DNA of 41,671 bases, taken from contig JAIPJR010000012.1 of NCBI GenBank assembly GCA_021734045.1, positions 1-41,671 of the forward strand, written 5' to 3'. Source of the stretch: Fidelibacterota bacterium (GTDB taxonomy: Bacteria; Fidelibacterota; UBA8477). Made by a program: the position numbers and the translations under genes. Positions 3,271 to 16,243 of this stretch are shown here, piece by piece. How positions within the stretch are numbered: the first letter of the stretch is position 1; each line of letters starts with the position of its first letter. The notes under the pieces are model-generated. The model was not told the origin of the DNA and did no database searches. It was given only the letters and a program-made list of their open reading frames with translations.

Positions 3271-3930
3271 TTACAGGTACGCCATTAACTCCAGAAAGTC
3301 TTTCACTAAAATGTCCGGCTTTTCCGCCTTTAATTGATCAACCGGTGTGTAACCGTGCATGATGGCAACAGCCGTCACCTTCGCGGCTCTGGCAGCGTGA
3401 ATATCCACGAAGCTGTCGCCCACAAACCAGACCGATTTGCTGTAGGGAATTCCCAACTTGACCAAACCATAATGAATCACCCGCGGATCGGGTTTTTTCC
3501 ACGCCGTGGAATCCTGCCCGAACATGAATCGAAAATAGCGATCCATTTCCAGTGCATGTAAAACACCGTGTACCACAGCTTCCGGCTTGTTGGAAATGAT
3601 GCCCAGGGGAATACCATCAAGAGCCTGTAAAAATTCTATCGCACGGGGATAAGGTTTAGTCTCATCAATAAGATGCGCCAGATAGTGCTCCCGAAATATT
3701 GCCAAGCCCTCATCAATCAGCGCCTTTGAAATCTCCACCGGCGGTAAAAATTCACTGAGACACTTCTCCACCAGGTAGGGCGCACCGTAACCCACATGTG
3801 ACATCACCAATTCTTTAGGCAATTCACCAAAACCCAGGTCATTCAGTGTACGGTTTAAATTGCTGGCGATATCATTACTGGAATCCACCAGGGTTCCATC
3901 CAAATCAAATAAAACGGCCGTCATCTTCAT
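3271..3930 (-). CDS. gph: HAD-superfamily phosphatase, phosphoglycolate-phosphatase type
   Basis: The product has 219 residues if the ATG at 3930 is used; a TTG at 3954 would add eight residues and an ATG at 3924 would remove two. No start has a clear ribosome site. HAD motif I is FDLDGT (D9 nucleophile and D11), motif II is the Ser in IISNKP, motif III is the Lys of KKPDPR and motif IV is GDSFVD. The helical cap between motifs I and II is typical of the Gph/PGMB class. It probably removes phosphate from 2-phosphoglycolate or a similar small metabolite in the cytoplasm, but HAD substrates cannot be told from motifs. It lies downstream of the etf terminator, so it probably has its own promoter. 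Confidence 0.8.
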   Translation of the reverse strand: MKMTAVLFDLDGTLVDSSNDIASNLNRTLNDLGFGELPKELVMSHVGYGAPYLVEKCLSEFLPPVEISKALIDEGLAIFREHYLAHLIDETKPYPRAIEFLQALDGIPLGIISNKPEAVVHGVLHALEMDRYFRFMFGQDSTAWKKPDPRVIHYGLVKLGIPYSKSVWFVGDSFVDIHAARAAKVTAVAIMHGYTPVDQLKAEKPDILVKDFLELMAYL

Positions 3931-4102
3931 GGGGCGAATATAGCTGGTATCCAATATGGGACGAAGGTTTTGTGGAAAAAAATGGCCGAAGGTGTCTGTG
4001 CTAACCCTGAAATTAATACGTCTGCATGATTCCGGATTTAATCAGGCGAACGATTCTAACCTCGGTTGGGACGCTGCCAGTGAACCGGCCTGACCAATTT
4101 CA

Positions 4103-4189: not shown

Positions 4190-5170
4190 CTACTTCTCCA
4201 GCAACTGTTTGGCAGCTTTGTCCATTTCCGGAACCACTTCAAACAGATCACCGACGATACCATAATCGGCAACCTTAAAAATGGGCGCTTCCTGATCTTT
4301 ATTAATCGCCACGATATATTTGGACGAACTCATACCGGCTAAATGCTGAATAGCGCCGGAGATACCGCAGGCGACATACAGATTTGGGGAAACCGTCTTT
4401 CCGGTCTGTCCCACCTGATCAGCGTGGGGGCGCCAACCGGCATCCACTGCTGCGCGGGAAGCACCCACCGCTGCACCCAGTGTATCAGCCAAAGCTTCAA
4501 TGACCGGATAATTATCTGGTCCGCCCATGCCCCGGCCACCGGAAACAATAATGCCGGCTTCCGTCAACTCCGGACGCCCGCCGGACTTCATCTGTGTATC
4601 GGTTACCTTTACCTTCAAATCATCGTCACTCAGGCTGAATGACAAATCATTCACGGCACCATCACCCGGTTTTTCCACCGCCGGAAAGACATTGGGACGC
4701 AGCGTCGCCATGGCAGGTTTGGATTTCACGGCGATTTTTAGAAATGCTTTGCCCGCGTAAACCGGGCGTTTGATTTCCAGATGATCTCCCTGCCATTCCG
4801 CCGCAACAATATCCGCCACCAGGCTTGTGCCGGCCTTAATTGCCGTTAGCGGTGCAACATCACGCCCCATGGCAGAAGCACTGAACAGCACCACGTCCGG
4901 GTTTTCATGCTCTATGGCTGCAGCCATAATCGTTGCATACGCCGAGGGCGAATAGGCTCCTAGCTGTCTATCGTCAGCGACCAACACTTTTTGAGCACCG
5001 AATTTAGCCAGTTCATCAGCCAGACTTTTAACGCCATCACCCACCAGGCAGGCGATTACTTCGCCACCGGATGCATCCGCAATAGCACGCCCTGCTGACA
5101 CAGCTTCCAGTGCATAGGACTTCAATTTATTTTCACGCTGTTCCGCAAATACCAATACTTTAGCCATCAT
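4190..5170 (-). CDS. etfA: Electron transfer flavoprotein, alpha subunit
   Basis: The product has 326 residues, the usual family length. The start is the first of two adjacent ATG codons, seven bases after AGGAGG. The C-terminal FAD-binding domain (about residues 200-320) is canonical: SGGRGMGG, GASRAAVDAGW, QVGQTGKTVSPNLY, GISGAIQHLAGM and AINKDQEAPIF. The N-terminal domain matches the alpha/beta ETF fold. With EtfB it carries electrons from acyl-CoA and related dehydrogenases to ETF:quinone oxidoreductase. It is encoded six bases after etfB, so the two are co-transcribed and probably translated in equal amounts. No dehydrogenase or ETF-QO gene is nearby. This is the standard type, with no extra ferredoxin or fix-type domain. 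Confidence 0.97.
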   Translation of the reverse strand: MMAKVLVFAEQRENKLKSYALEAVSAGRAIADASGGEVIACLVGDGVKSLADELAKFGAQKVLVADDRQLGAYSPSAYATIMAAAIEHENPDVVLFSASAMGRDVAPLTAIKAGTSLVADIVAAEWQGDHLEIKRPVYAGKAFLKIAVKSKPAMATLRPNVFPAVEKPGDGAVNDLSFSLSDDDLKVKVTDTQMKSGGRPELTEAGIIVSGGRGMGGPDNYPVIEALADTLGAAVGASRAAVDAGWRPHADQVGQTGKTVSPNLYVACGISGAIQHLAGMSSSKYIVAINKDQEAPIFKVADYGIVGDLFEVVPEMDKAAKQLLEK

Positions 5171-5176
5171 TGCCTC

Positions 5177-5932
5177 CTATATCACCTTGGCTTCATCACG
5201 CAGTAAGCGCACCAACTCAGCCGCCGCTTCCGGACCCTCACCCACAATTCGACCAGCCGGTTTCTCCGGCGGATAGGTCATCTCCAGAATTTCAAAACCA
5301 CCATCCGTTAACGCTGCTTCTTTCATCTCGATAGGTTTTTTCTTTGCTTGCATAATGCCTTTCAGCGACGGATAGCGCGGCTCATTCAATCCTTTTTCTG
5401 CGGTAATAACACACGGCAGTGGTGCTTCCATGGTCTCCTTGCCACCTTCAATGTCCCGGACAATCGTGGCTTTTCCATCGGAAATGGTTAACTCCCGGGC
5501 GGTGCTCAGAACCGGCAGATTCAACAACTCACCCAACATGGAACCCACCTGATAGCCATAGTCATCTATAGCCATTTTTCCGGTGAGAATTACATCTGCT
5601 TCCAGGGTTTTAACCTCTTCCGCCAGCACTTGAGCAATAGAAACACCATCCATCAGCGCCGATTCTTCCGCGGTTAGCAATACCGCACGGTCAGCCCCCA
5701 TAGCTAACGCCGTACGGATGGAGCTCTGGGCCGCTTCCGGTCCTACAGAGACGACGATAACCTCACCATCACCATCCGCTTCGTTTAATTTTAATGCCTC
5801 CTCGACAGCGAATTCGTCGTAAGGATTTAAAATATACTTGACCCCGGCCGGATTCAGCGACTTCCCATCGTCCCCAATAGCCACCTTGGTCTCTGTATCA
5901 GGTACATGCTTGACACACACCACAATTTTCAT
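5177..5932 (-). CDS. etfB: Electron transfer flavoprotein, beta subunit
   Basis: The product has 251 residues from the ATG at 5932, which follows AAAGGAG at good spacing. An in-frame TTG at 5956 lies upstream of that site and is unlikely to be used. The N-terminus MKIVVCVKHVPDTE, the block NPYDEFAVEEAL, and the nucleotide-binding block ILTGKMAIDDYGYQVGSML are diagnostic of EtfB. In family members this subunit binds AMP and forms the heterodimer with EtfA. It is the first gene of the etfBA operon; the promoter should lie in the 104 bases up to the receptor gene at 6037, where I could not pick a confident hexamer pair. Confidence 0.96.
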   Translation of the reverse strand: MKIVVCVKHVPDTETKVAIGDDGKSLNPAGVKYILNPYDEFAVEEALKLNEADGDGEVIVVSVGPEAAQSSIRTALAMGADRAVLLTAEESALMDGVSIAQVLAEEVKTLEADVILTGKMAIDDYGYQVGSMLGELLNLPVLSTARELTISDGKATIVRDIEGGKETMEAPLPCVITAEKGLNEPRYPSLKGIMQAKKKPIEMKEAALTDGGFEILEMTYPPEKPAGRIVGEGPEAAAELVRLLRDEAKVI

Positions 5933-6036
5933 TTTCAATCTCCTTTTCCTAATCAATCACCATTCAACAGCTAAAACTAAAAACCAGAAATTCATGCACA
6001 AGCTAAAACCGACCGGCCAGTCAGTTTGCGATAATT

Positions 6037-8967
6037 TTATTTTGACACTTGTTGGTTAATTGGTTTTTCCAGCCGGTTGATGGTTACCAGCAATCGGTCA
6101 TCTTCATCCGCCGTCATCCATCCGGTTCCCATTAGTGTTTGCAATGTCTGGTCAGCACTGCATCCCAGCACGTCTGGCGTGTGAAGCGGCGCTATATGAC
6201 TCGTATCGTCCTGTATAAGGTGCAACCCATCCGAATGGAGTCCCAGCATGGAGCCGGGAGGCAGGGTAATCGTTTGCCACGCCGGTGACCAGTCCGCGAA
6301 AACACCCATCGGTGGTGCCGACGGTGTCTTTACGGTATGGGGTATACCCGATTTATCCACGATAAACGGCGGCGGGTTTCCTGCCGCCATACAATACGCC
6401 AAATCCGTCTCCTCATTCACCACGGCAGCAGTAACCGCCACATTAAATCCGGCTTTGGGCAGTCGGTACAAGGTCAAATTCATCTGTTCCAACCACCCGG
6501 ATAATGTCATTTCCTTCCAATCCTGGGACTGGAGCGACATTTTCAGAAAACCATTGAGATAACTGGTCTCCAATCCCGATCCGGCCACATCAACCACCAT
6601 GGCAAAAAAGCGCTCATCCCGTCCCCGGAAGGTATAATAAAAATCCCCACTGAATTCATTCCGGGGTCGAATAACCACGGACAACTTCCAGTTTTTTCCC
6701 ACCGTGGGTAGTTCCGTATTCGCCAGCTGTTGATTAAACTCCTCCGCCAATGCGATTTCCTCGGCCTGCCACTGCATGATCTCGCGCTCATGCCTGATCT
6801 GCACAATTCGGTATGTCAAGCGACTAAAAAAGACCACCGACACCAATAAGACGGCAACCAGAAATTCCCAACGCTGGTAGAAAGGCGGATTGATGACAAA
6901 TGTGGAAAAGCGATACACCGGTCCCCAATCAAGATGACCCACGCCGCGTGCCTGCACACCGATTTCATATTCACCCGGTGAGAGATTTGAAAATTGAAGT
7001 TGCGTATTAGCGCCCAGGCCAACCCAGTCACCAGGACGGTTCAAAAAGCGGTACCGAAATTCCGTAGTCCGATTCAAAAAATCCGGTGCACCCAAATCCA
7101 CCGTGAGCAACGGATGATTGTGAGAATATTTTTCAGCCCAGCCGGCGGTCGGTTGCCCGTCCTGCCAGAACTGATAGGGTACTACGGTGGGGACATGCTC
7201 GGGCAAGTCCATCCCGGTAGGAATATGAATCAATCCGCCAATGCTGCCGAACCATACCCCCGACGCTTCAGCCATTATTGCCCCATTATTCATTTCATTA
7301 GCGGGTAAACCATCGTCATATCCCAGAACCTCCACGAATTGATCTTCCAAACGAACAATCCCCTGATTGGTGCCCAGCCAGACCTCATTTCCCGGCCTTA
7401 TGCTTACGGAGTACACATTTGAACCGGGCAAGCCATCTTCCAGATTATACCACGCCAAGCGCTCCCCATTCTGATTCAGAACAATCAAACCAGCGTCCGT
7501 TCCCAGCCAGATTTTGCCGGTTAGATCTACCGCCACATCCCAAATAACACGGCTTGCCTCCCAAATCTGTACACGCCTCTGATTGAAATAATTTAGCCCC
7601 CGGTCCGTGGCAATGTATAACCCATCGCCGGCATCCGCCAACGCATGGCAATACATGCTGGAAAATCCCAATTCTGACGGAAATACCTCCCAATGCCCGT
7701 CGGCATGGTAAAGCCGCAAGCCCTTTTCCGTCCCCAGCCAGACCTGACCATCCTTGTTTAGCACATCCAATACTGCAAAATCCAGCAAATGCTGCTCAGA
7801 AATAAAATTCCCGTCATTGTCCATTTCGTAGATATCCGTACTGTTGTCATAACCAACCACAACACGATTATCAATGAACGGACTTATGCACCACGCCCGG
7901 GCTGACTTTGTGGCCGTACTGCGTTCAAATTGCTCATCATTTCCGGAGTGATAAATACCATCATCAGTCGCCACCAAAAGTCGATCCCCAATCCTGGCGA
8001 TGTGATTCACCATGGGATTGGCCAATCCGGACTTCTCAGTATAAGCGCGTAATTGATATGGGAGCACCTGCACCAGACCTTCGCCGTCCGTTCCAACCCA
8101 GAGGCTGCCTTGCCGGTCCAGGTAAACCGACCGGAAAAACGAATCCGGCAAGCCATTTTCCGCTGTTATAATTTCCCGTCGTTTCGGCGTGTGCTGATTA
8201 AAACGCACAATACCCGTGTAATAGAGCGAGGCGGCTACACTGTCTCCCCGAACCGCCACATCCGTCACCACCTCATTCCCAATAATCCGGCGCAAACCCT
8301 TGGTGTTTTTTAAGAACAATCCCGAGGAACTACCACACCACAATCCGGTAGAGGACGGGACCAGTTTCAGGAAAAATATATCCGGTGCCTCCCCTTTAAG
8401 TGTGGTACCGTTCCAGCGATACAATCCTGTACTGGTGGCCAGCCATAGCGCGTTTTGCCATTGAATCAGGTCTAACAGCAGACTCCCCTCGGGTAATGCT
8501 GCGCCGGGAACAACCAACAGTGTATCATCCTGCAAAACGCACAACCCATTCAAAAGCGTACCCACATACAACTCACCTTGATATGCTGCCACACCCCTTA
8601 CCTCTTGTTCCCTGGTCTTCGGCAGGAAATGAACTGAGTCGGTCACATCAAACGATATATACCCCAGACCCGCATTGGTCCCAATCCACATGGTGTTCGG
8701 TGTGGCTTCCGAAAAGCTCCGGATCCACTCGCTTTCCAAACCGTTTGTGTAGGTGAGTGTATAGACATTCGCACCAGTAAAAAGATTGATGCCCCCCATG
8801 GTGCCGACCCAGATGACACCACGGCTGTCCTGCACAATCTCATTGACCTGAGACTGGATTAAAATTGTCTCCGGACTATAATGCCGCAGGGGAACTTCCG
8901 CGGCAGCTACCATTCCCGCCGACCCAAACAACAGCATGATCAACAGAATATTTCCGGTTAACCTCAT
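6037..8967 (-). CDS. Membrane receptor: sensor propeller, Y_Y_Y domain, one transmembrane helix and SpoIIE/PP2C-type phosphatase
   Basis: The product has 976 residues. A signal peptide (about 1-22) precedes repeated blades with the two-component-regulator-propeller signature (IWVGTMGGINLF, MWIGTNAGLGYI, LWVGTDGEGLVQ, VWLGTNQGIVRL) to about residue 600. A Y_Y_Y Ig-like domain follows (FRYRFLNRPGDWVGLG). A single membrane helix lies near 702-718, then a short coiled linker. The SpoIIE-like PP2C domain (about 765-970) keeps all four expected acidic sites: GDFY, DVAGSG, HSDG and DEDDR. A periplasmic sensor therefore controls a cytoplasmic Ser/Thr phosphatase, rather than the usual histidine kinase. 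Its ATG overlaps the stop of the preceding phosphoesterase (ATGA). Likely targets, such as an anti-sigma antagonist, are not encoded nearby. Confidence 0.9.
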   Translation of the reverse strand: MRLTGNILLIMLLFGSAGMVAAAEVPLRHYSPETILIQSQVNEIVQDSRGVIWVGTMGGINLFTGANVYTLTYTNGLESEWIRSFSEATPNTMWIGTNAGLGYISFDVTDSVHFLPKTREQEVRGVAAYQGELYVGTLLNGLCVLQDDTLLVVPGAALPEGSLLLDLIQWQNALWLATSTGLYRWNGTTLKGEAPDIFFLKLVPSSTGLWCGSSSGLFLKNTKGLRRIIGNEVVTDVAVRGDSVAASLYYTGIVRFNQHTPKRREIITAENGLPDSFFRSVYLDRQGSLWVGTDGEGLVQVLPYQLRAYTEKSGLANPMVNHIARIGDRLLVATDDGIYHSGNDEQFERSTATKSARAWCISPFIDNRVVVGYDNSTDIYEMDNDGNFISEQHLLDFAVLDVLNKDGQVWLGTEKGLRLYHADGHWEVFPSELGFSSMYCHALADAGDGLYIATDRGLNYFNQRRVQIWEASRVIWDVAVDLTGKIWLGTDAGLIVLNQNGERLAWYNLEDGLPGSNVYSVSIRPGNEVWLGTNQGIVRLEDQFVEVLGYDDGLPANEMNNGAIMAEASGVWFGSIGGLIHIPTGMDLPEHVPTVVPYQFWQDGQPTAGWAEKYSHNHPLLTVDLGAPDFLNRTTEFRYRFLNRPGDWVGLGANTQLQFSNLSPGEYEIGVQARGVGHLDWGPVYRFSTFVINPPFYQRWEFLVAVLLVSVVFFSRLTYRIVQIRHEREIMQWQAEEIALAEEFNQQLANTELPTVGKNWKLSVVIRPRNEFSGDFYYTFRGRDERFFAMVVDVAGSGLETSYLNGFLKMSLQSQDWKEMTLSGWLEQMNLTLYRLPKAGFNVAVTAAVVNEETDLAYCMAAGNPPPFIVDKSGIPHTVKTPSAPPMGVFADWSPAWQTITLPPGSMLGLHSDGLHLIQDDTSHIAPLHTPDVLGCSADQTLQTLMGTGWMTADEDDRLLVTINRLEKPINQQVSK

Positions 8968-9698
8968 GGAATGATCTCCGATTCCTCGCGTTGTCCGGTT
9001 TCCAATGCCTTCCGGATAGGCATTGGGAAATTAAGCGTGACCATTTTCTCCAGTGTTGCTTGCCAGTTGTATTCAACCCGCAATAAATCCACCGAATAAT
9101 TGTCTTCATCCATTTCCAGAACCGCACAAGATGCACGAACATCCCCGTCAAACGCCCGCCCAACACAACCGGGATTGATGAACAATGTATTATCCACCTG
9201 CCGGGCAAAAGGATCATGGGAATGACCACAGATCACCAAATCAGACCGGCTCATGGCCGCCAACTCACGTAACCGCTCATCCGGTGTTGAACGAACCAAA
9301 CCCTCCATAAAGTCGGCTGGACTGCCGTGGACCATGTGTATCGTCTGATTATCCAGCTGTAATTTCATTTCCCGCGGCCAGCTTCTTACGACTTGGGCAA
9401 TCGCTGGTGTTATTTCACCCGCAGCGAATTCATACACCCAGCGTTTGGCTGCCATTTTCGGCCGCTCCGGCGGAGTCCCTTCAAAAAACGCCAGCGCCCA
9501 TTCATCCACATTCCCGCGAATGGAGGTAACGCCATGACTGTCAACCAACTCTGTAACCGCCACCGGATCCGGACCAAAAACCAGGGTATCACCACAATTG
9601 AGGATAAAATCAAAGTCCTCTGGGGGACAGGTTTCAAATACCGCCTCCAGCGCCTCCAAAACACCATGAATATCAGAGATCAATAAACCCAGCGTCAT
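8964..9698 (-). CDS. Calcineurin-like metallophosphoesterase
   Basis: The product has 244 residues. It carries the five metal-binding blocks of the class: SDIHG (D9, H11), NCGDT, GNVDE, HGSP and CGHSHDP. The NPGCVG stretch near the end and the overall size match the YfcE/MJ0936 branch, which in characterised members hydrolyses phosphodiesters or phosphoproteins with two divalent metals. It lacks a signal peptide and should be cytoplasmic. Both ends overlap its neighbours by four bases (ATGA), so it is translationally coupled to the lipoprotein gene before it and the receptor phosphatase after it. The substrate is unknown. Confidence 0.85.
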   Translation of the reverse strand: MTLGLLISDIHGVLEALEAVFETCPPEDFDFILNCGDTLVFGPDPVAVTELVDSHGVTSIRGNVDEWALAFFEGTPPERPKMAAKRWVYEFAAGEITPAIAQVVRSWPREMKLQLDNQTIHMVHGSPADFMEGLVRSTPDERLRELAAMSRSDLVICGHSHDPFARQVDNTLFINPGCVGRAFDGDVRASCAVLEMDEDNYSVDLLRVEYNWQATLEKMVTLNFPMPIRKALETGQREESEIIP

Positions 9699-10072
9699 GG
9701 CGTAACATTCGATTGTGTTTTTAAGGCAGTACCGTTTGGTGACTGTAACAGTATGACCTCCTTGTTTTTTGTCAAAACCAATCGTCGAACGACCTGCTTA
9801 GGACCGGTCACCACATCCACCCGTGTGCCTGAGTGAAGTTTCTGCTCAATCTCGCGGATATCATAACCGGTCTGCCCGGCAACCCGGAGGGGAATCCTTA
9901 TCCGGTGCGTTTGCCCATCATTATCAAAAACCTGCACCACCCACACATTCGGCTTGGTTTGAATCTCTCCCACCGTTCCAACAATTCTGTGATAGGAATT
10001 CGCCGCACAACTGCCCAATATGAATGCTACCACACTCAACCCAATCACCACCCGATTCGCCGCAAACGGCAT
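9695..10072 (-). CDS. Small predicted lipoprotein of unknown function
   Basis: The product has 125 residues from the ATG at 10072, which overlaps the stop of the sixA-like gene as TGATG; a TTG one codon upstream is an alternative. A G-rich stretch precedes the start. The N-terminus is a lipoprotein signal with lipobox LGSC around residue 21. The mature part is a small beta-rich domain (VGEIQTKPNVWVVQVFD, THRIRIPL) that resembles an OB- or SH3-like fold by eye. I do not recognise a named family. The envelope location between two phosphatase genes suggests a role in the same sensory pathway. Confidence 0.7.
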   Translation of the reverse strand: MPFAANRVVIGLSVVAFILGSCAANSYHRIVGTVGEIQTKPNVWVVQVFDNDGQTHRIRIPLRVAGQTGYDIREIEQKLHSGTRVDVVTGPKQVVRRLVLTKNKEVILLQSPNGTALKTQSNVTP

Positions 10073-10578
10073 CAATTCCCCCCCTGCTCTGCCAGCATGG
10101 CCAACTCCTCGCCCGTATAAAATCCCGTCAGTTCAGCCTTCCCCGGTGCAACCCGTTCACGGAATGATAAAATTGCCACACTATTGGGCGAAAACGCAAT
10201 ATGCAGCCCCGGCTTGCCTACCGCCCGGCTGACAAAATTATGAACAACCGGTAAATGGCCCACGTATAAAAAACCCGCCCCGGTAGGCATTCGCGCCATA
10301 GTTTGGAAATAATCGTCCAGGTTCGACTCGGCTAAAAAATACGCCGCTTTAACACCATCCTCGCCAATACCAAAAACACTACCCATGATAATGCCCGTTT
10401 CCCGGGCACGCCGTAACGGACTGGTATAAATGGCATCAAGATTCGGTACAATGCTTTTCAAACCACGAGCCGCCCGGGTCGCCAGCGCCACGCCTTCCGG
10501 TGTCAGGGCACGAAAATAATCCCCATTACTGGAAATGGATTCCGCATAACCATGCCGCATCATGAGTATCTGTCTCAT
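10072..10578 (-). CDS. sixA: SixA-type phosphohistidine phosphatase
   Basis: The product has 168 residues from the ATG at 10578, which follows AAGGGTAAAGGG; the frame extends further upstream but that part looks untranslated. The histidine-phosphatase signature is MMRHG (R8, H9, G10). The SPLRRARET block and the distal VGHLP histidine complete the catalytic pocket. SixA enzymes dephosphorylate phosphohistidine on HPt domains or phosphotransferase proteins. It is the first gene of a four-gene overlapping unit that also holds a metallophosphoesterase and a PP2C-type receptor. The family is firm; the physiological partner is inferred. Confidence 0.85.
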   Translation of the reverse strand: MRQILMMRHGYAESISSNGDYFRALTPEGVALATRAARGLKSIVPNLDAIYTSPLRRARETGIIMGSVFGIGEDGVKAAYFLAESNLDDYFQTMARMPTGAGFLYVGHLPVVHNFVSRAVGKPGLHIAFSPNSVAILSFRERVAPGKAELTGFYTGEELAMLAEQGGN

Positions 10579-10697
10579 CCCTTTACCCTTCAAAACACCC
10601 GCCCCGCCCAGTTCCGGTATCAGCACTTGATTTCAATCGTTGATTGAGGGAGAAATGTAGGCGGCAGGACAATAAATCCCAAGCGGCGGATTGGCCT

Positions 10698-11015
10698 TTA
10701 AATCGACTGTTTTGGAAGTCCGGCCAGCATCGCCTCCATCTGCTCACGATACGTTTCAAATGCCGTGCGTCCGTGTGGCGTTAGCTTCAAAAGTGTATGG
10801 GGCTTTTTATCCACAAATTCCTTTGTAACCGCGACATAACCGGCATTTTCCAGCTTGGAAAGATGAGAACTCAAATTGCCCCAGGTGAGGCCGGTGCGCT
10901 GCATGACAAATATAAAATCAGCGCTTTCTACCACATACAATTGGGTCATAATCGCCAACCGGGCGGGTTCGTGGATCAGTTTGTCCATATCCTGGGGAAC
11001 GACGGGATCACTCAT
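10698..11015 (-). CDS. Winged-helix transcriptional regulator (HTH_34/MarR-like)
   Basis: The product is 105 residues and has a compact winged-helix: RLAIMTQLYVVESADFIFVMQRTGLTWGNLSSHLSKLENAGYV (about 18-60) is the helix-turn-helix, and the following VTKEFVDKKPHTLLKLTPHG is the wing. The TGLTWGNLSSHLSKLE wording is characteristic of the small HTH_34 group. The ATG is one base after the stop of the membrane-protein gene. This tight pairing with a hydrophobic partner is common for the group and suggests they work together. It may bind the CAAAG/CTTTG repeats in front of the operon and regulate its own transcription. The ligand is unknown. Confidence 0.8.
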   Translation of the reverse strand: MSDPVVPQDMDKLIHEPARLAIMTQLYVVESADFIFVMQRTGLTWGNLSSHLSKLENAGYVAVTKEFVDKKPHTLLKLTPHGRTAFETYREQMEAMLAGLPKQSI

Positions 11016-11016
11016 G

Positions 11017-11622
11017 TTAATCTGCCAGGTTTGGTTTGGGATAAAGCTTCATGAATTGGAACAACAAGGTACTACCAACGCCCAGAAAGACCAGTCCCAC
11101 CACCAGTATTCCGGTCAATCCGTCAGCGCCCGTGTAGTAGGAAACAACTGCCGCCAGAGCAAGCAGCAGGGCCAGATACCAATAGCGCTTCAATTTGATA
11201 TTCAAGGCCAGAATGACAAGTCCCATGATTCCAATCAGGTAAAACGGTAAAAGCGGAATGGCATGGAATGTGGCGTTAATCCCGGCGCCCATATTTTCCC
11301 GTATCATGAAAATGACAATACCGGCCAGCAGGAAAATTCCCAAACCCGACCTGAATAGCTGCTTGGAGCGCTTCTTCCGGAAACTGCTTTCGCCCTTAAA
11401 ATTGACAAGACCAATGCGCTGAGCGGTGATTTTGCGTTTTAATAATGCCCAGAGCGGTACACACACTGCCGCCCACGCACCCACCAGCGCCGGAATATCC
11501 GCTTTAATCCAGCCGAAAATGCCAAGGGCGATGACACCCACCACAATTTCTAAAATCCCATCATTGAAGTAAGTGAGGAAACTGGTCCGCTCTTCCTGTT
11601 TTAAGTCTTGTAGTGTGTTCAT
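11017..11622 (-). CDS. Multi-spanning membrane protein partnered with the winged-helix regulator
   Basis: The product has 201 residues, starting at an ATG behind AAGGAGG. About six hydrophobic segments are visible (for example EIVVGVIALGIFGWI, LGIFLLAGIVIFMI, LPFYLIGIMGLVILAL and YLALLLALAAVVSYY), with a basic loop KRKITAQRIGLVNF after the second. The family is unknown to me by name. It is the first gene of a two-gene operon with the winged-helix regulator and has an obvious promoter. It may sense or respond to a membrane stress, but nothing in the sequence proves a function. Confidence 0.75.
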   Translation of the reverse strand: MNTLQDLKQEERTSFLTYFNDGILEIVVGVIALGIFGWIKADIPALVGAWAAVCVPLWALLKRKITAQRIGLVNFKGESSFRKKRSKQLFRSGLGIFLLAGIVIFMIRENMGAGINATFHAIPLLPFYLIGIMGLVILALNIKLKRYWYLALLLALAAVVSYYTGADGLTGILVVGLVFLGVGSTLLFQFMKLYPKPNLAD

Positions 11623-11737: not shown

Positions 11738-12679
11738 TTAAGGTGTAGAATCCATCGGCGCCGAGATCAGATTCACTGTGAGATAAACCTCATTCAGCGT
11801 ACCGGCGTAACCCAGTGCGCCATTGTCGAAAAAATTTCGCGCCGGGTGATTGGGCGGAAAATCCCGCAGGTAATAATGCTTGTAAAAGGTGTCATTCATC
11901 ACCCCGATGACCAATTCATAAACGCCCGGATCCACACCCAACACCGACAAAACCGGTCCCGGATACGAGAACATATTGGGTAATAAGCGCGGTTCGGCAT
12001 CCAACTTGTCGGTGTAAACCGTATAGAACCAGGCAGTGGGATCTTCCTGCCAGATCAGTCTGGCAGAATCCGGATACTGGGCAATCGTGGTATAGGTCAT
12101 GGTGTAGGTCCCATCGCCACGGATACCACTTGGGAATGTCCGCACCGAATCAACCGTTAAATTCTCTATCTGAATGGCGGGAAAGGGTGAGAAGGTGGTT
12201 GTGTAATCCACACCATCGACGGTTACGACCAGTGTGTATGTTTCGTCATCCAGCAACTGAAAATCCAATCGGTCCAGGGTATATCCGCCATAGGTCAGCG
12301 TATCAATGTACTGAACCAGCGAATCAGGATTTTGCATGATCTCGGGATTAAATTCCGGGATATTGTAAAAAGCAAAACTGCTGGCGGAATCCTGCCAACT
12401 GAAATGGCTGAGTGTATCAATTCCATGAAGTAGAACAGCGTCGGCATTTTTGACGTATAAGTGTTCCAAATCCATCGTATCCGAAATGGCAAACGTATGA
12501 TCCACCCGCAGAATGGATTTTCCCAGATTCGCCGGGAAAAAATCCCCTTCGATCTTGATCTGGGCGGTATAGTCAAAATTAAACTCGCTCAAGGGGACAT
12601 TTTTGGTACACGCCGCCAGCCAGGCTAACAAGGTAACGGCACACAAATTCCGGAGAATATTTCGAGTAGGTGCTTTCAT
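11738..12679 (-). CDS. DUF4249-type outer-membrane lipoprotein, partner of the TonB receptor
   Basis: The product has 313 residues from the ATG at 12679; the frame continues upstream inside the receptor gene but that part is not protein-like. The signal ends in a lipobox LAAC, with the lipidated Cys near residue 24. Then comes a beta-rich domain with the motif KIEGDFFPANLGKSILRVDHTF near its start and repeated V-x-Y strands, as in DUF4249 proteins. In FCB bacteria these are encoded next to carboxypeptidase-regulatory TonB receptors and are thought to sit on the cell surface. Its ATG overlaps the receptor stop as TGATG, so the two are translationally coupled. No substrate is evident. Confidence 0.75.
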   Translation of the reverse strand: MKAPTRNILRNLCAVTLLAWLAACTKNVPLSEFNFDYTAQIKIEGDFFPANLGKSILRVDHTFAISDTMDLEHLYVKNADAVLLHGIDTLSHFSWQDSASSFAFYNIPEFNPEIMQNPDSLVQYIDTLTYGGYTLDRLDFQLLDDETYTLVVTVDGVDYTTTFSPFPAIQIENLTVDSVRTFPSGIRGDGTYTMTYTTIAQYPDSARLIWQEDPTAWFYTVYTDKLDAEPRLLPNMFSYPGPVLSVLGVDPGVYELVIGVMNDTFYKHYYLRDFPPNHPARNFFDNGALGYAGTLNEVYLTVNLISAPMDSTP

Positions 12680-15114
12680 CAGAACTTGAAGGTTACTCCC
12701 ACAGTGGGCATGATGGGAAACATGGAGGTGGCGGTAACTTCCGAGGGCAGAACCGAATGGTCCCATTGATACAGCAGGACATTAAAATGGTTGAGGACAT
12801 TGAGAACCTGGAACTGGAATTCACCATTCCAGCTAAACCACCCAATCTTTCGCGACCAACTCACATCACCCCGATTGTAATAAGGAAACATCGCGCTGTT
12901 GCGATTTCCGTACAAACTTGTTTGATTTAAAAATGGTGTAAGCCAACTAATGTCGCCACCGCCATACATTTTTCCCACCACCGGTGTGTATGGCTGGCCG
13001 GAACTGATTGTCCAGCTCAGGCCCAACCGGTTTTTAGCGTTCAGATCGTAATTCACAACCGCCTTGAAGTTATGGCGCTTATCGTACTTGGGGGGGTAAA
13101 TCTCACCCTTACTCGCTTCCAGAATACCGTTACTATCCAGATCGACCTTTTTTTCAACCTTGCTGTAAGTATAAGACAACCAGCCGGATATCTTGCCGAT
13201 GTTGCGTTTCCAGATTGTCTCAAATCCGTAGGCCCGCCCCGTGCCGGCGATGTAATCATCATCGGGATTATATTGCTTCTGGATCGGATTGGAATCCAGA
13301 ATATTCAGGTAAGGCTTGTAATACACTTCGCAGGAGACCTGATTTCCATTACCAATCCACTGCTCAATCCCGGCTATGAAATGCCAGGCCCGCTCCGGAT
13401 CCAGGTAATGCGGCACCGGTAACCAGAAATCCACGATGCGCAGGACTGCATCGTCATTGTTGCTCGTAAACAGGAACTGGGTAAATGTCCCAGCGCTGAA
13501 CTTGAAGGCAGAATTTTCCAGGAACCGATATTTCAATCCACCGCGAATATCCGTCCACAGCTTGTTTGACTCGGAATACTTGCTGGTCCGAACGCCCAAT
13601 TGCAGATTGAGTAAAGCACCCACCGACCAGGTATCCTGCACGTAGGCACTTAAAATATTCGGCTTGGATTGATCGCTTAAAAATCGCGTGCCATCCTGAT
13701 CGAAGGTGAAATTGAAATTCAGATGCTTGTACTCCAGCCCCCCCTGTACCCGATGCGCCTCATTCACCTTCCAGTCCAGCCGCTCCGACAGGGTCCAGTC
13801 ACTCACTTTATTGCCAATATCAAAATTAGTGGTCGTGGTGTTTCCATTCGTATCAGTTGTTGTCTGTTCCAGATTGACTGTAAAATCGTAGATGGAATGT
13901 GCCAGCGTCGTTTCTGTGAAAAGCTGGGGTTTTACAACCGTTTTCAAGACGGCACTATTGGTCTGATTGCCCCACACCCAGTTTAGACCTACATCCTGTT
14001 TGGATCGATCACCCCCTCCGGTACTGAAGCTGAGCGTCAGGTCATCCGAGCCACGGTAAAAATTCACATCCAGTCGGTTTTTCGGATTCAATTGGGTGTG
14101 AATCTTACCCTGAAAATCGTAAAAATAATAGGGCAGGGTCGGAATTGTATCTTTTATGGAATGGAGCACATTGGCAATTTGGTCAAAATAGGTACGACGG
14201 ACCGAAAAGACCCAGCCGCCAGCCTTCACCGGTCCCTCCAGGAAAATTTTAGAACTGAGCAAACTCACATTCACGCTGCCATGACTCAAATCAAAGTATT
14301 CCGGATAAGGCCACCACTGCCCCATTTTGCCACCCGCCGGACTCCCCTCTTTGGACTGAATTTCCAACACGGAAGACATGCGTCCACCGAAACGCACCGG
14401 AAATCCGCCCGCTTGAAAATCGGCATTGGCGATGGCGTCGGTATTAAATGCTGAGAACACGCCGCCAAAATGGTAGGGATTATAAACCTCCACACCGTCC
14501 AAGAGGATGAGATTCTCATCCGGACTCCCGCCCCGTACCACCAGCGCGGCCGAAAAATCATTTTGCGCCACCACACCCGGTAACATCTGGATTGACCGGA
14601 ACACATCCGCCTCTACAAATGCCGGGACAACCTCCAGCTCTCGGGCAGACAAACTCACCCGGCTCACCTCCACCGACTTCTCGAAGCGCGTCCGGTCGGC
14701 TGTCACCACCACCTCCTGCAAAGCCACATCTTCCGGCACCAGTGCTACATCCTGCCGCGTATCAATGCCCGCGGTAACACTGACGGTCAGCTCCATGGTT
14801 TTGTGGCCAATGTAGGTGATTGAAAGGGTATAATTTCCTGGCGGTATCCGCTGAATCACAAAATACCCCCGCTGATCCGTTGTGGTTCCGCGTTGCGTAT
14901 TTTTCAATATCACATTCACATAGGGCAGCGGCTCAGCCGTTTCGGCATCGGTGATAAATCCTGCAAGCGTCCCCGTTTGCTGCGCACTGAGGGGATATGT
15001 GAGCAGCAATAATAGCACAATGATAGTGATGAAAACGAAATGGTCTCCCGGACCATGCCTACCTTGACACAACGGGATGAATGCAGTCCGAAGGGTGCTC
15101 TCAAAATTTTTCAT
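12679..15114 (-). CDS. TonB-dependent outer-membrane receptor with N-terminal carboxypeptidase-regulatory domain
   Basis: The product has 811 residues from the ATG at 15114; another ATG at 15132 would overlap the methyltransferase stop. After a long basic leader and hydrophobic signal (to about residue 45, LLLLTYPLSAQQ) comes a CarboxypepD_reg-like domain (GTLAGFITDAETAEPLPYVNV). A plug follows (QEVVVTADR, then RSIQMLPGVV, VVRGGSPDENLILLDGVEVYNP). A barrel runs to the end with the usual aromatic finish (PTVGVTFKF). The plug lacks the extended loops typical of SusC. It should import a large or scarce nutrient with energy from TonB. It shares an operon with a THUMP methyltransferase and a DUF4249 lipoprotein; no SusD-like gene is present, so this is not a classic polysaccharide locus. 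Confidence 0.93.
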   Translation of the reverse strand: MKNFESTLRTAFIPLCQGRHGPGDHFVFITIIVLLLLLTYPLSAQQTGTLAGFITDAETAEPLPYVNVILKNTQRGTTTDQRGYFVIQRIPPGNYTLSITYIGHKTMELTVSVTAGIDTRQDVALVPEDVALQEVVVTADRTRFEKSVEVSRVSLSARELEVVPAFVEADVFRSIQMLPGVVAQNDFSAALVVRGGSPDENLILLDGVEVYNPYHFGGVFSAFNTDAIANADFQAGGFPVRFGGRMSSVLEIQSKEGSPAGGKMGQWWPYPEYFDLSHGSVNVSLLSSKIFLEGPVKAGGWVFSVRRTYFDQIANVLHSIKDTIPTLPYYFYDFQGKIHTQLNPKNRLDVNFYRGSDDLTLSFSTGGGDRSKQDVGLNWVWGNQTNSAVLKTVVKPQLFTETTLAHSIYDFTVNLEQTTTDTNGNTTTTNFDIGNKVSDWTLSERLDWKVNEAHRVQGGLEYKHLNFNFTFDQDGTRFLSDQSKPNILSAYVQDTWSVGALLNLQLGVRTSKYSESNKLWTDIRGGLKYRFLENSAFKFSAGTFTQFLFTSNNDDAVLRIVDFWLPVPHYLDPERAWHFIAGIEQWIGNGNQVSCEVYYKPYLNILDSNPIQKQYNPDDDYIAGTGRAYGFETIWKRNIGKISGWLSYTYSKVEKKVDLDSNGILEASKGEIYPPKYDKRHNFKAVVNYDLNAKNRLGLSWTISSGQPYTPVVGKMYGGGDISWLTPFLNQTSLYGNRNSAMFPYYNRGDVSWSRKIGWFSWNGEFQFQVLNVLNHFNVLLYQWDHSVLPSEVTATSMFPIMPTVGVTFKF

Positions 15115-15118
15115 CCGC

Positions 15119-16243
15119 TTAATACAAATCATACTTCAGTAAGCGGCTTTCAATTGCGCCATTATACAACAATATCCGCTCTTTGGTTCGCAAGCCAACA
15201 AATTTCCGTAAAATCAGATTCCCGGTAAAAATCGAAGCCGTACAACCCTGTAATTCCTGTTTCAAATGATCCCCCAACTCCCGGTACAGCGCTTTGAGAT
15301 TTTCCACCTCATCCAGTCGCTCACCGTAGGGTGGATTGGTAATGACCAAACCTCCTCCCTGTCGGTGACCCACTTTTCGAAAATCGCCGGTCCGGATGGT
15401 TATCACCGAATCCAACCCCGCCGCGGTCACGTTTTTCCGAGCCATTTCAGCCACAGCCGCATCAATCTCCACACCGACTCCCCGCACCTGTAACGGAGAC
15501 TGCTCAGCTTCCAGTCCCTCCCGCACCGATTGTAGTGCCGCCACATCAAAGTCCTGCCAATTTTCACACGCGAACGACCGGTTCAGATTGGGCGCCATGT
15601 TGTGGGCGATCATAAGCGCTTCGATCAGCAGCGTTCCCGAGCCACACATGGGATCGTACACCGGTGATTTTCCGTCCCAATCGCTCAGCAGAACAATCGC
15701 CGCCGCCAACGCCTCCTTCATGGGTGCTTCCCCGGCCTTTAACCGGTAATGCCGGCGATGCAGGGATTCGCCTGAGGCGTCCAGTGAAAAGGTCACATGG
15801 GGTCCGTTCACAAAAAGATTGAACACCACCTGGGGCGCTTTCAAATCCACACTGGGACGGGCTGCACCGTTCGTCTTGCGGCGAAATTGATCCACAATGG
15901 CATCTTTCACCTTCTGGGCGGCGTATTGGGAATGGGTCATGGCTGACGCCACCAGGTTCACATCCACCCGGAAGGTCTGCTCCACCCGCAGGAGCCTAAA
16001 AATGTCGATCTTGGCAATTCCACGGTAGAGGGCGTCATAATCCCGGGCATTGAACGCCGCAATCGGCTTCAAAATTCGCGTGGCCGTGCGTAACGCCATG
16101 TTGGCGCGATACATGTCCCGGTTCTCGGCTTCAAATGCCACCCCGCTAAACTGGGGTGTGGTGGCTGAAATCCCCAACGACTGAAGCTCTTTTTCCAGTA
16201 CCGGCTCCACACCACGGGGACAGACAGCAAAAAATTTTTCCAT
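15119..16243 (-). CDS. rlmL: THUMP-domain 23S rRNA guanine-N2 methyltransferase (RlmL N-terminal-like)
   Basis: The product has 374 residues. A THUMP domain (about 45-155) precedes a Rossmann methyltransferase with the SAM-binding block DPMCGSGTLL near residue 195 and the catalytic NPPYGERL near residue 301. This is the architecture of the RlmL N-half and of the short YpsC-like enzymes that methylate G2445 of 23S rRNA or an equivalent. It lacks the RlmK half, so only one methylation is expected. The start is an ATG 32 bases from the divergent HMA gene, leaving little room for two promoters. It is the first gene of a unit that continues into the TonB receptor, an unusual combination that probably reflects chance co-transcription. 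Confidence 0.88.
   Translation of the reverse strand: MEKFFAVCPRGVEPVLEKELQSLGISATTPQFSGVAFEAENRDMYRANMALRTATRILKPIAAFNARDYDALYRGIAKIDIFRLLRVEQTFRVDVNLVASAMTHSQYAAQKVKDAIVDQFRRKTNGAARPSVDLKAPQVVFNLFVNGPHVTFSLDASGESLHRRHYRLKAGEAPMKEALAAAIVLLSDWDGKSPVYDPMCGSGTLLIEALMIAHNMAPNLNRSFACENWQDFDVAALQSVREGLEAEQSPLQVRGVGVEIDAAVAEMARKNVTAAGLDSVITIRTGDFRKVGHRQGGGLVITNPPYGERLDEVENLKALYRELGDHLKQELQGCTASIFTGNLILRKFVGLRTKERILLYNGAIESRLLKYDLY

Follow-up and report, generated by a model that had tools for sequence, protein, structure and literature searches.

The question raised by this locus is whether four overlapping genes, which encode three different hydrolases and a lipoprotein, serve a single signaling pathway or are only transcribed together. 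The window, meaning the whole stretch of 41,671 nucleotides that was analyzed (contig C74 of genome G000), was compared with a set of 60 genomes of Ca. Neomarinimicrobiota relatives. All four genes are read from the minus strand and encode a SixA-like histidine phosphatase (10578..10072, 168 residues from an ATG start, with a possible alternative in-frame GTG start upstream at 10626), a small lipoprotein (10072..9695, 125 residues), a YfcE-type metallophosphoesterase (9698..8964, 244 residues) and a receptor with propeller, Y_Y_Y and SpoIIE domains (8967..6037, 976 residues). They meet as TGATG at 10072 and as ATGA at 9695-9698 and 8964-8967, and these junctions and the overall limits (6037..10578) agree with an earlier sequence-only reading of this DNA, whose domain names are likewise borne out by the Pfam matches, the lipoprotein being without a family. 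Its description of one operon with three distinct hydrolase folds and a membrane-spanning receptor whose propeller is periplasmic also stands.

A 1- or 4-base overlap is possible at seven of the 31 same-strand neighbor pairs in the window, four of them outside the operon, and thus the overlaps indicate an operon and nothing more special. The dN/dS values from comparing the window with its nearest relative (0.21 for sixA, 0.30 for the lipoprotein, 0.11 for the phosphoesterase and 0.09 for the receptor) show that all four are real functional genes under purifying selection. In that relative the 4-base overlap is retained at the last two junctions and a gap of 2 bases separates sixA from the lipoprotein gene, and the third genome of the genus has a 4-base overlap at these two junctions as well (TTGA and ATGA). 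A promoter scan returned 8 matches vs 10.1 expected, which is chance level and says nothing about transcript ends; a promoter may lie in the gap of 72-120 bases before sixA. Just ahead of the operon and likewise on the minus strand (10698-11622), two genes spaced by a single base encode a membrane protein and a winged-helix regulator (HTH_34), and the window also encodes a TonB-dependent receptor with a carboxypeptidase-regulatory domain (12679-15132), whose gene is overlapped and followed by that of a secreted-looking protein without a Pfam match (11738-12766).

The receptor gene is followed, again on the minus strand, by etfB (5177..5938) and etfA (4190..5170, by BLAST synteny), for the electron transfer flavoprotein (ETF) beta and alpha proteins, and by pgp, which encodes a HAD/phosphoglycolate-phosphatase-like hydrolase (3271..3954) and is syntenic with etfBA in family f1, in G003 and in genus g3. 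The three genomes of the genus agree in the order from sixA through the lipoprotein, phosphoesterase and receptor genes to etfB, etfA and the HAD gene, the contig of the third ending inside sixA, and this order and two of the three overlaps persist while protein identity within the genus falls to 41-69%. In G003, which represents a sister family (f2), a full-length receptor (29% identical) is likewise followed by etfB, etfA and HAD, and a 784-residue FecR-domain protein (L083:2551-4905) is encoded upstream of the receptor, where the sixA-lipoprotein-phosphoesterase trio would be. The SixA relative of G003 (38% identical) is encoded on a different contig, next to an enolase-like gene, the lipoprotein is absent and the phosphoesterase is represented only by a general paralog. 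Hence the receptor-etfBA-HAD arrangement common to the genus and G003 is the older unit, and the upstream trio was either added at the level of the genus or lost elsewhere. The conservation of gene order that the sequence-only reading proposed to survey holds for the genus, and the separation of the genes in relatives that it had set against its own proposal is what we see in the sister family. Co-occurrence, whose absence was part of that condition, is present for one pair, as the receptor and the window-type SixA have identical distributions, both being confined to G000-G003 (4 of the 60 genomes), although they are unlinked in G003. An ETF tree does not separate G003, f1 and g3, so G003 may or may not be the family nearest to f1 and the co-occurrence may represent a single event. 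The four-gene combination is confined to one genus; its parts are familiar and the arrangement is new.

From its signal-peptide-like start the receptor runs through a two-component-regulator propeller and the Y_Y_Y domain to a single transmembrane helix, beyond which a helical linker leads to the SpoIIE-type PP2C domain; there are Pfam matches to Reg_prop (1.8e-16), Y_Y_Y (3.9e-7) and SpoIIE (3.9e-20). The hydrophobic helix is near residues 714-735 and is followed by a basic stretch; the topology of this and the other operon proteins was read from the sequence, without a predictor. The propeller is nearest in the PDB to the HTCS sensors 4a2l, 3v9f and 3ott. An identity as PorZ was considered and rejected, as NF052228 scores 52 bits vs a cut-off of 260 and the propeller repeats in common explain the match. 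Pfam gives no histidine kinase or receiver match, and the C-terminus is the PP2C domain (PF07228, 73 bits vs a cut-off of 25). It is a divergent PP2C, in that the match spans positions 2-134 of the 192 in the model and the last third is unmatched. The motifs SGDF, DVxGxG, SDG and DD, whose four Asp residues we take to be the metal-binding positions, are kept in four receptor orthologs that are 29-82% identical, and the same motifs are matched in a GAF-type SpoIIE protein of this genome. The structures nearest to the PP2C domain are 3es2/3eq2, which are P. aeruginosa RssB (PMC12143880), and 3ke6 (Rv1364c), and helical linkers are established as a general means of relaying a signal from a sensor to PP2C (PMC12143880). 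A search of a limited set of papers for propeller-SpoIIE architectures found none, which is not proof of their absence.

It is established that SpoIIE-type phosphatases usually target STAS proteins that are phosphorylated by RsbW-type kinases (PMC11619594). The sequence-only reading saw no kinase, which is true of the locus but not of the genome, where two free-standing, RsbW-sized HATPase_c_2 kinases and two STAS proteins are encoded on contigs C83, C99 and C106, and RsbW-type kinases and STAS proteins score above the Pfam cut-off in all five genomes searched. The STAS protein on C99 has no Ser/Thr site and is encoded between an RsbW-type kinase and a sigma-54-type activator; such a three-gene module of RsbW-type kinase, site-less STAS and activator (L141:6122-8338, L144, L145) is conserved in the genus. 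The STAS protein on C83 (G000:C83:431-775) is the only one of the two with a canonical DSTG site, and only two SpoIIE genes, for the receptor and the GAF-type protein, were found in the genome. Hence the C83 STAS and the kinase on C106 (G000:C106:8683-9186) are, by elimination, likely partners. In B. subtilis, RsbU and RsbP share RsbV, and by analogy the receptor and the GAF-type phosphatase are likely to have this STAS-kinase pair in common; alternatively, the GAF-type SpoIIE may be the sole phosphatase of this STAS. As the kinase and STAS are unlinked to the receptor, their pairing with it rests on elimination and on the indirect synteny described below, and with the assembly 92% complete a further partner may exist.

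We lean, if only slightly, toward the view that the receptor is an RsbU-like transmembrane partner-switch phosphatase that acts on an off-locus STAS protein and that the other three genes are accessories. From its domains, topology signals and intact catalytic residues, together with the presence of the kinase and STAS and the synteny, we infer that a periplasmic ligand would bind the propeller/Y_Y_Y sensor and that the signal would pass across the membrane and through the helical linker to the cytoplasm, where, as in RsbU-type phosphatases, the SpoIIE-type PP2C would be dimerized and activated. The PP2C would then dephosphorylate the DSTG protein on C83, which the C106 kinase would otherwise keep phosphorylated, and the dephosphorylated STAS would free the partner of the kinase, probably a sigma factor, and so switch on a stress-type gene program. 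The SixA-like protein, the YfcE-type phosphoesterase and the lipoprotein would be accessories coupled to the receptor in the genus, and the two enzymes would not be further erasers of its signal.

The SixA-like protein matches PF00300 (His_Phos_1, 2.4e-7) and the catalytic RHG and second catalytic GH are present in the alignment, while its score against the sixA equivalog TIGR00249 of NCBIfam, 53.8 bits, is below the cut-off of 74.5. No signal peptide is visible in its sequence and the phosphoesterase is also cytoplasmic by sequence, and with no export signal both would act in the cytoplasm. E. coli SixA dephosphorylates NPr, and SixA homologs are known from genomes without HPr (PMC7948535). 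HPr/NPr (PF00381), the SixA target studied best though not one that strictly defines the enzyme, was found in none of five genomes (this genome and four relatives), with a positive E. coli control. This result and the sub-threshold TIGR00249 score leave unsupported the earlier suggestion that the enzyme erases phosphohistidine in a phosphorelay. Ndk is a demonstrated SixA target in E. coli (PMC12934123) and is encoded in this genome and thus, with HPr not found, it is a reasonable candidate target here. By analogy, the most likely substrate would be a phosphohistidine carried by some housekeeping enzyme, for example Ndk, with Ndk itself, and nucleotides as substrates of the SixA-like protein or the phosphoesterase, being guesses. 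In genus g3 a different, RHS-type SixA subfamily adjoins Ppx/GppA genes; its weak matches were rejected as orthologs, as the alignment and mutual best hits show it to be distinct. Another SixA-like subfamily in G052 is encoded beside a polyphosphate kinase gene, and the contexts in g3 and G052 suggest a polyphosphate-related role for these subfamilies. In family f6 a SixA-like gene abuts genes for a conserved protein of ~322 residues without a Pfam match and for an acyltransferase-like protein.

The phosphoesterase matches PF12850 (Metallophos_2, 1.7e-25) and scores 73.6 bits with TIGR00040 (YfcE), above the cut-off of 56.25. Its best PDB match, near full-length, is 3qfm (1.4e-12), which we take to be the S. 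pneumoniae Ap4A hydrolase SapH, and its metal-ligand motifs D-x-H, GD, GNVD, HG and GHSH are invariant across the three genomes of this genus. Outside the genus it has distant relatives only, with about 23-32% identity in the long matches. By analogy with these matches its substrates would most likely be small nucleotides, and neither 3qfm nor TIGR00040 points to a protein substrate, so the proposal of three phosphatases for signaling proteins finds no support in this enzyme. The lipoprotein has the lipobox L-G-S-C, retained in each of the three genomes, and a body conserved from C22 on, but it has no Pfam match and among the 60 genomes was found only in this genus. AlphaFold models from three-sequence alignments (pLDDT 45 for the lipoprotein and 32 for the phosphoesterase) are too poor for fold comparison.

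The sequence-only reading combined these proteins into a module dedicated to erasing signals: SixA, PP2C and the phosphoesterase would all strip a single pathway sensed through the propeller and the lipoprotein. The tight operon retained throughout the genus and the matching distribution of the receptor and the SixA subfamily, albeit unlinked in G003, speak for such a module, but we consider it very unlikely, given the YfcE/3qfm type of the phosphoesterase, the failure to find HPr, the absence of the lipoprotein and of a close phosphoesterase where the receptor and SixA persist, and a co-occurrence that may be one event with G003 unplaced in the tree. The idea of three protein phosphatases that erase one signal is thus without support as regards the phosphoesterase, and for SixA it is unproven. 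It is possible, though we do not think it probable, that the genes are co-transcribed without a common pathway, as a lineage-specific packing of housekeeping hydrolases, with SixA and the phosphoesterase in phosphohistidine or nucleotide housekeeping, upstream of the older receptor-etfBA-pgp locus. This would fit the turnover of the upstream genes beside a constant receptor-etfB-etfA-pgp unit, as seen in the FecR-domain gene that replaces the trio in G003, the Ppx/GppA or polyphosphate kinase neighbors of other SixA subfamilies in the phylum and the frequency of overlaps in the window, whereas the order and overlaps that survive divergence within the genus, and the co-occurrence of the receptor with its SixA subfamily, speak against it.

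The partner-switch mechanism itself leaves room for a more specific output, to which the ETF locus may be a guide. The receptor ortholog is directly upstream of etfB in all three f1 genomes and in G003, with about 40-120 bases between the two genes, and an apparent C83 ortholog, a DSSG STAS, is the gene immediately after etfA in each of the six f3 and f8 genomes read (G033, G028, G023, G034, G038 and G029) and one gene away from etfA in G024 (f4). In the genome of the window this STAS is unlinked to etfBA, and in genus g3 neither neighbor of etfBA is a partner-switch gene. The pattern was noticed post hoc and its two arrangements are alternatives, no genome seen having both, but the flanking of etfBA by receptor and STAS in different families is the strongest sequence pointer to the receptor's substrate, regulation not being thereby shown. 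A partner switch that regulates etfBA and acyl-CoA oxidation according to a periplasmic substrate would be compatible with our preferred mechanism and would name its output. We regard this as unlikely, in spite of a partner-switch gene on one flank of etfBA in f1, f2 (G003), f3 and f8 and one gene further off in f4, as adjacency shows no regulation, g3 is an exception, and the receptor-etfB gap and the chance-level promoter scan also tell against it. Less probable again is an energy- or starvation-status module, in which the operon would couple a transmembrane PP2C stress switch, historically tied to the ETF locus, to a reset of the nucleotide state by the SixA-like protein, acting on Ndk phosphohistidine, and by the phosphoesterase, acting on dinucleotide polyphosphates; if true, such a module has not been described before. 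The recurrence of partner-switch genes beside etfBA provides a testable guess as to what the STAS switch senses or controls in this uncultivated marine phylum.

The receptor, the SixA-like protein and the phosphoesterase each have known counterparts, from which they also depart. Like E. coli SixA (nearest solved structures 4hbz and 3f2i), the SixA-like protein is a short branch-1 histidine phosphatase with RHG and a second His, but it falls under the equivalog cut-off in a genome where HPr/NPr was not found, and it represents a separate subfamily found outside the genus only in G003. The phosphoesterase resembles YfcE/3qfm-type enzymes in its near full-length 3qfm match, its metal ligands and its TIGR00040 score, yet over its length the identity with relatives from beyond the genus does not exceed about 32%. 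With the RsbU/RsbP/SpoIIE-type PPM phosphatases the receptor shares the C-terminal SpoIIE-type PP2C, the set of metal-binding Asp residues and a helical linker after the sensor, and the genome shares with their partner-switching systems an RsbW-type kinase and a DSTG/DSSG STAS; the receptor differs in sensing through a propeller and Y_Y_Y domain that lie in the periplasm, on the far side of a membrane helix, and in that the kinase and STAS are not encoded beside it, such adjacency being frequent but not required. The periplasmic propeller and Y_Y_Y sensor followed by one membrane helix is that of the HTCS hybrid two-component systems of Bacteroides (4a2l, 3v9f and 3ott), in which the output is not a PP2C domain, and the receptor is without their histidine kinase, receiver and AraC domains. 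An HTCS-kind propeller on a PP2C would be a clear natural exchange of sensors between histidine kinases and partner-switch phosphatases.
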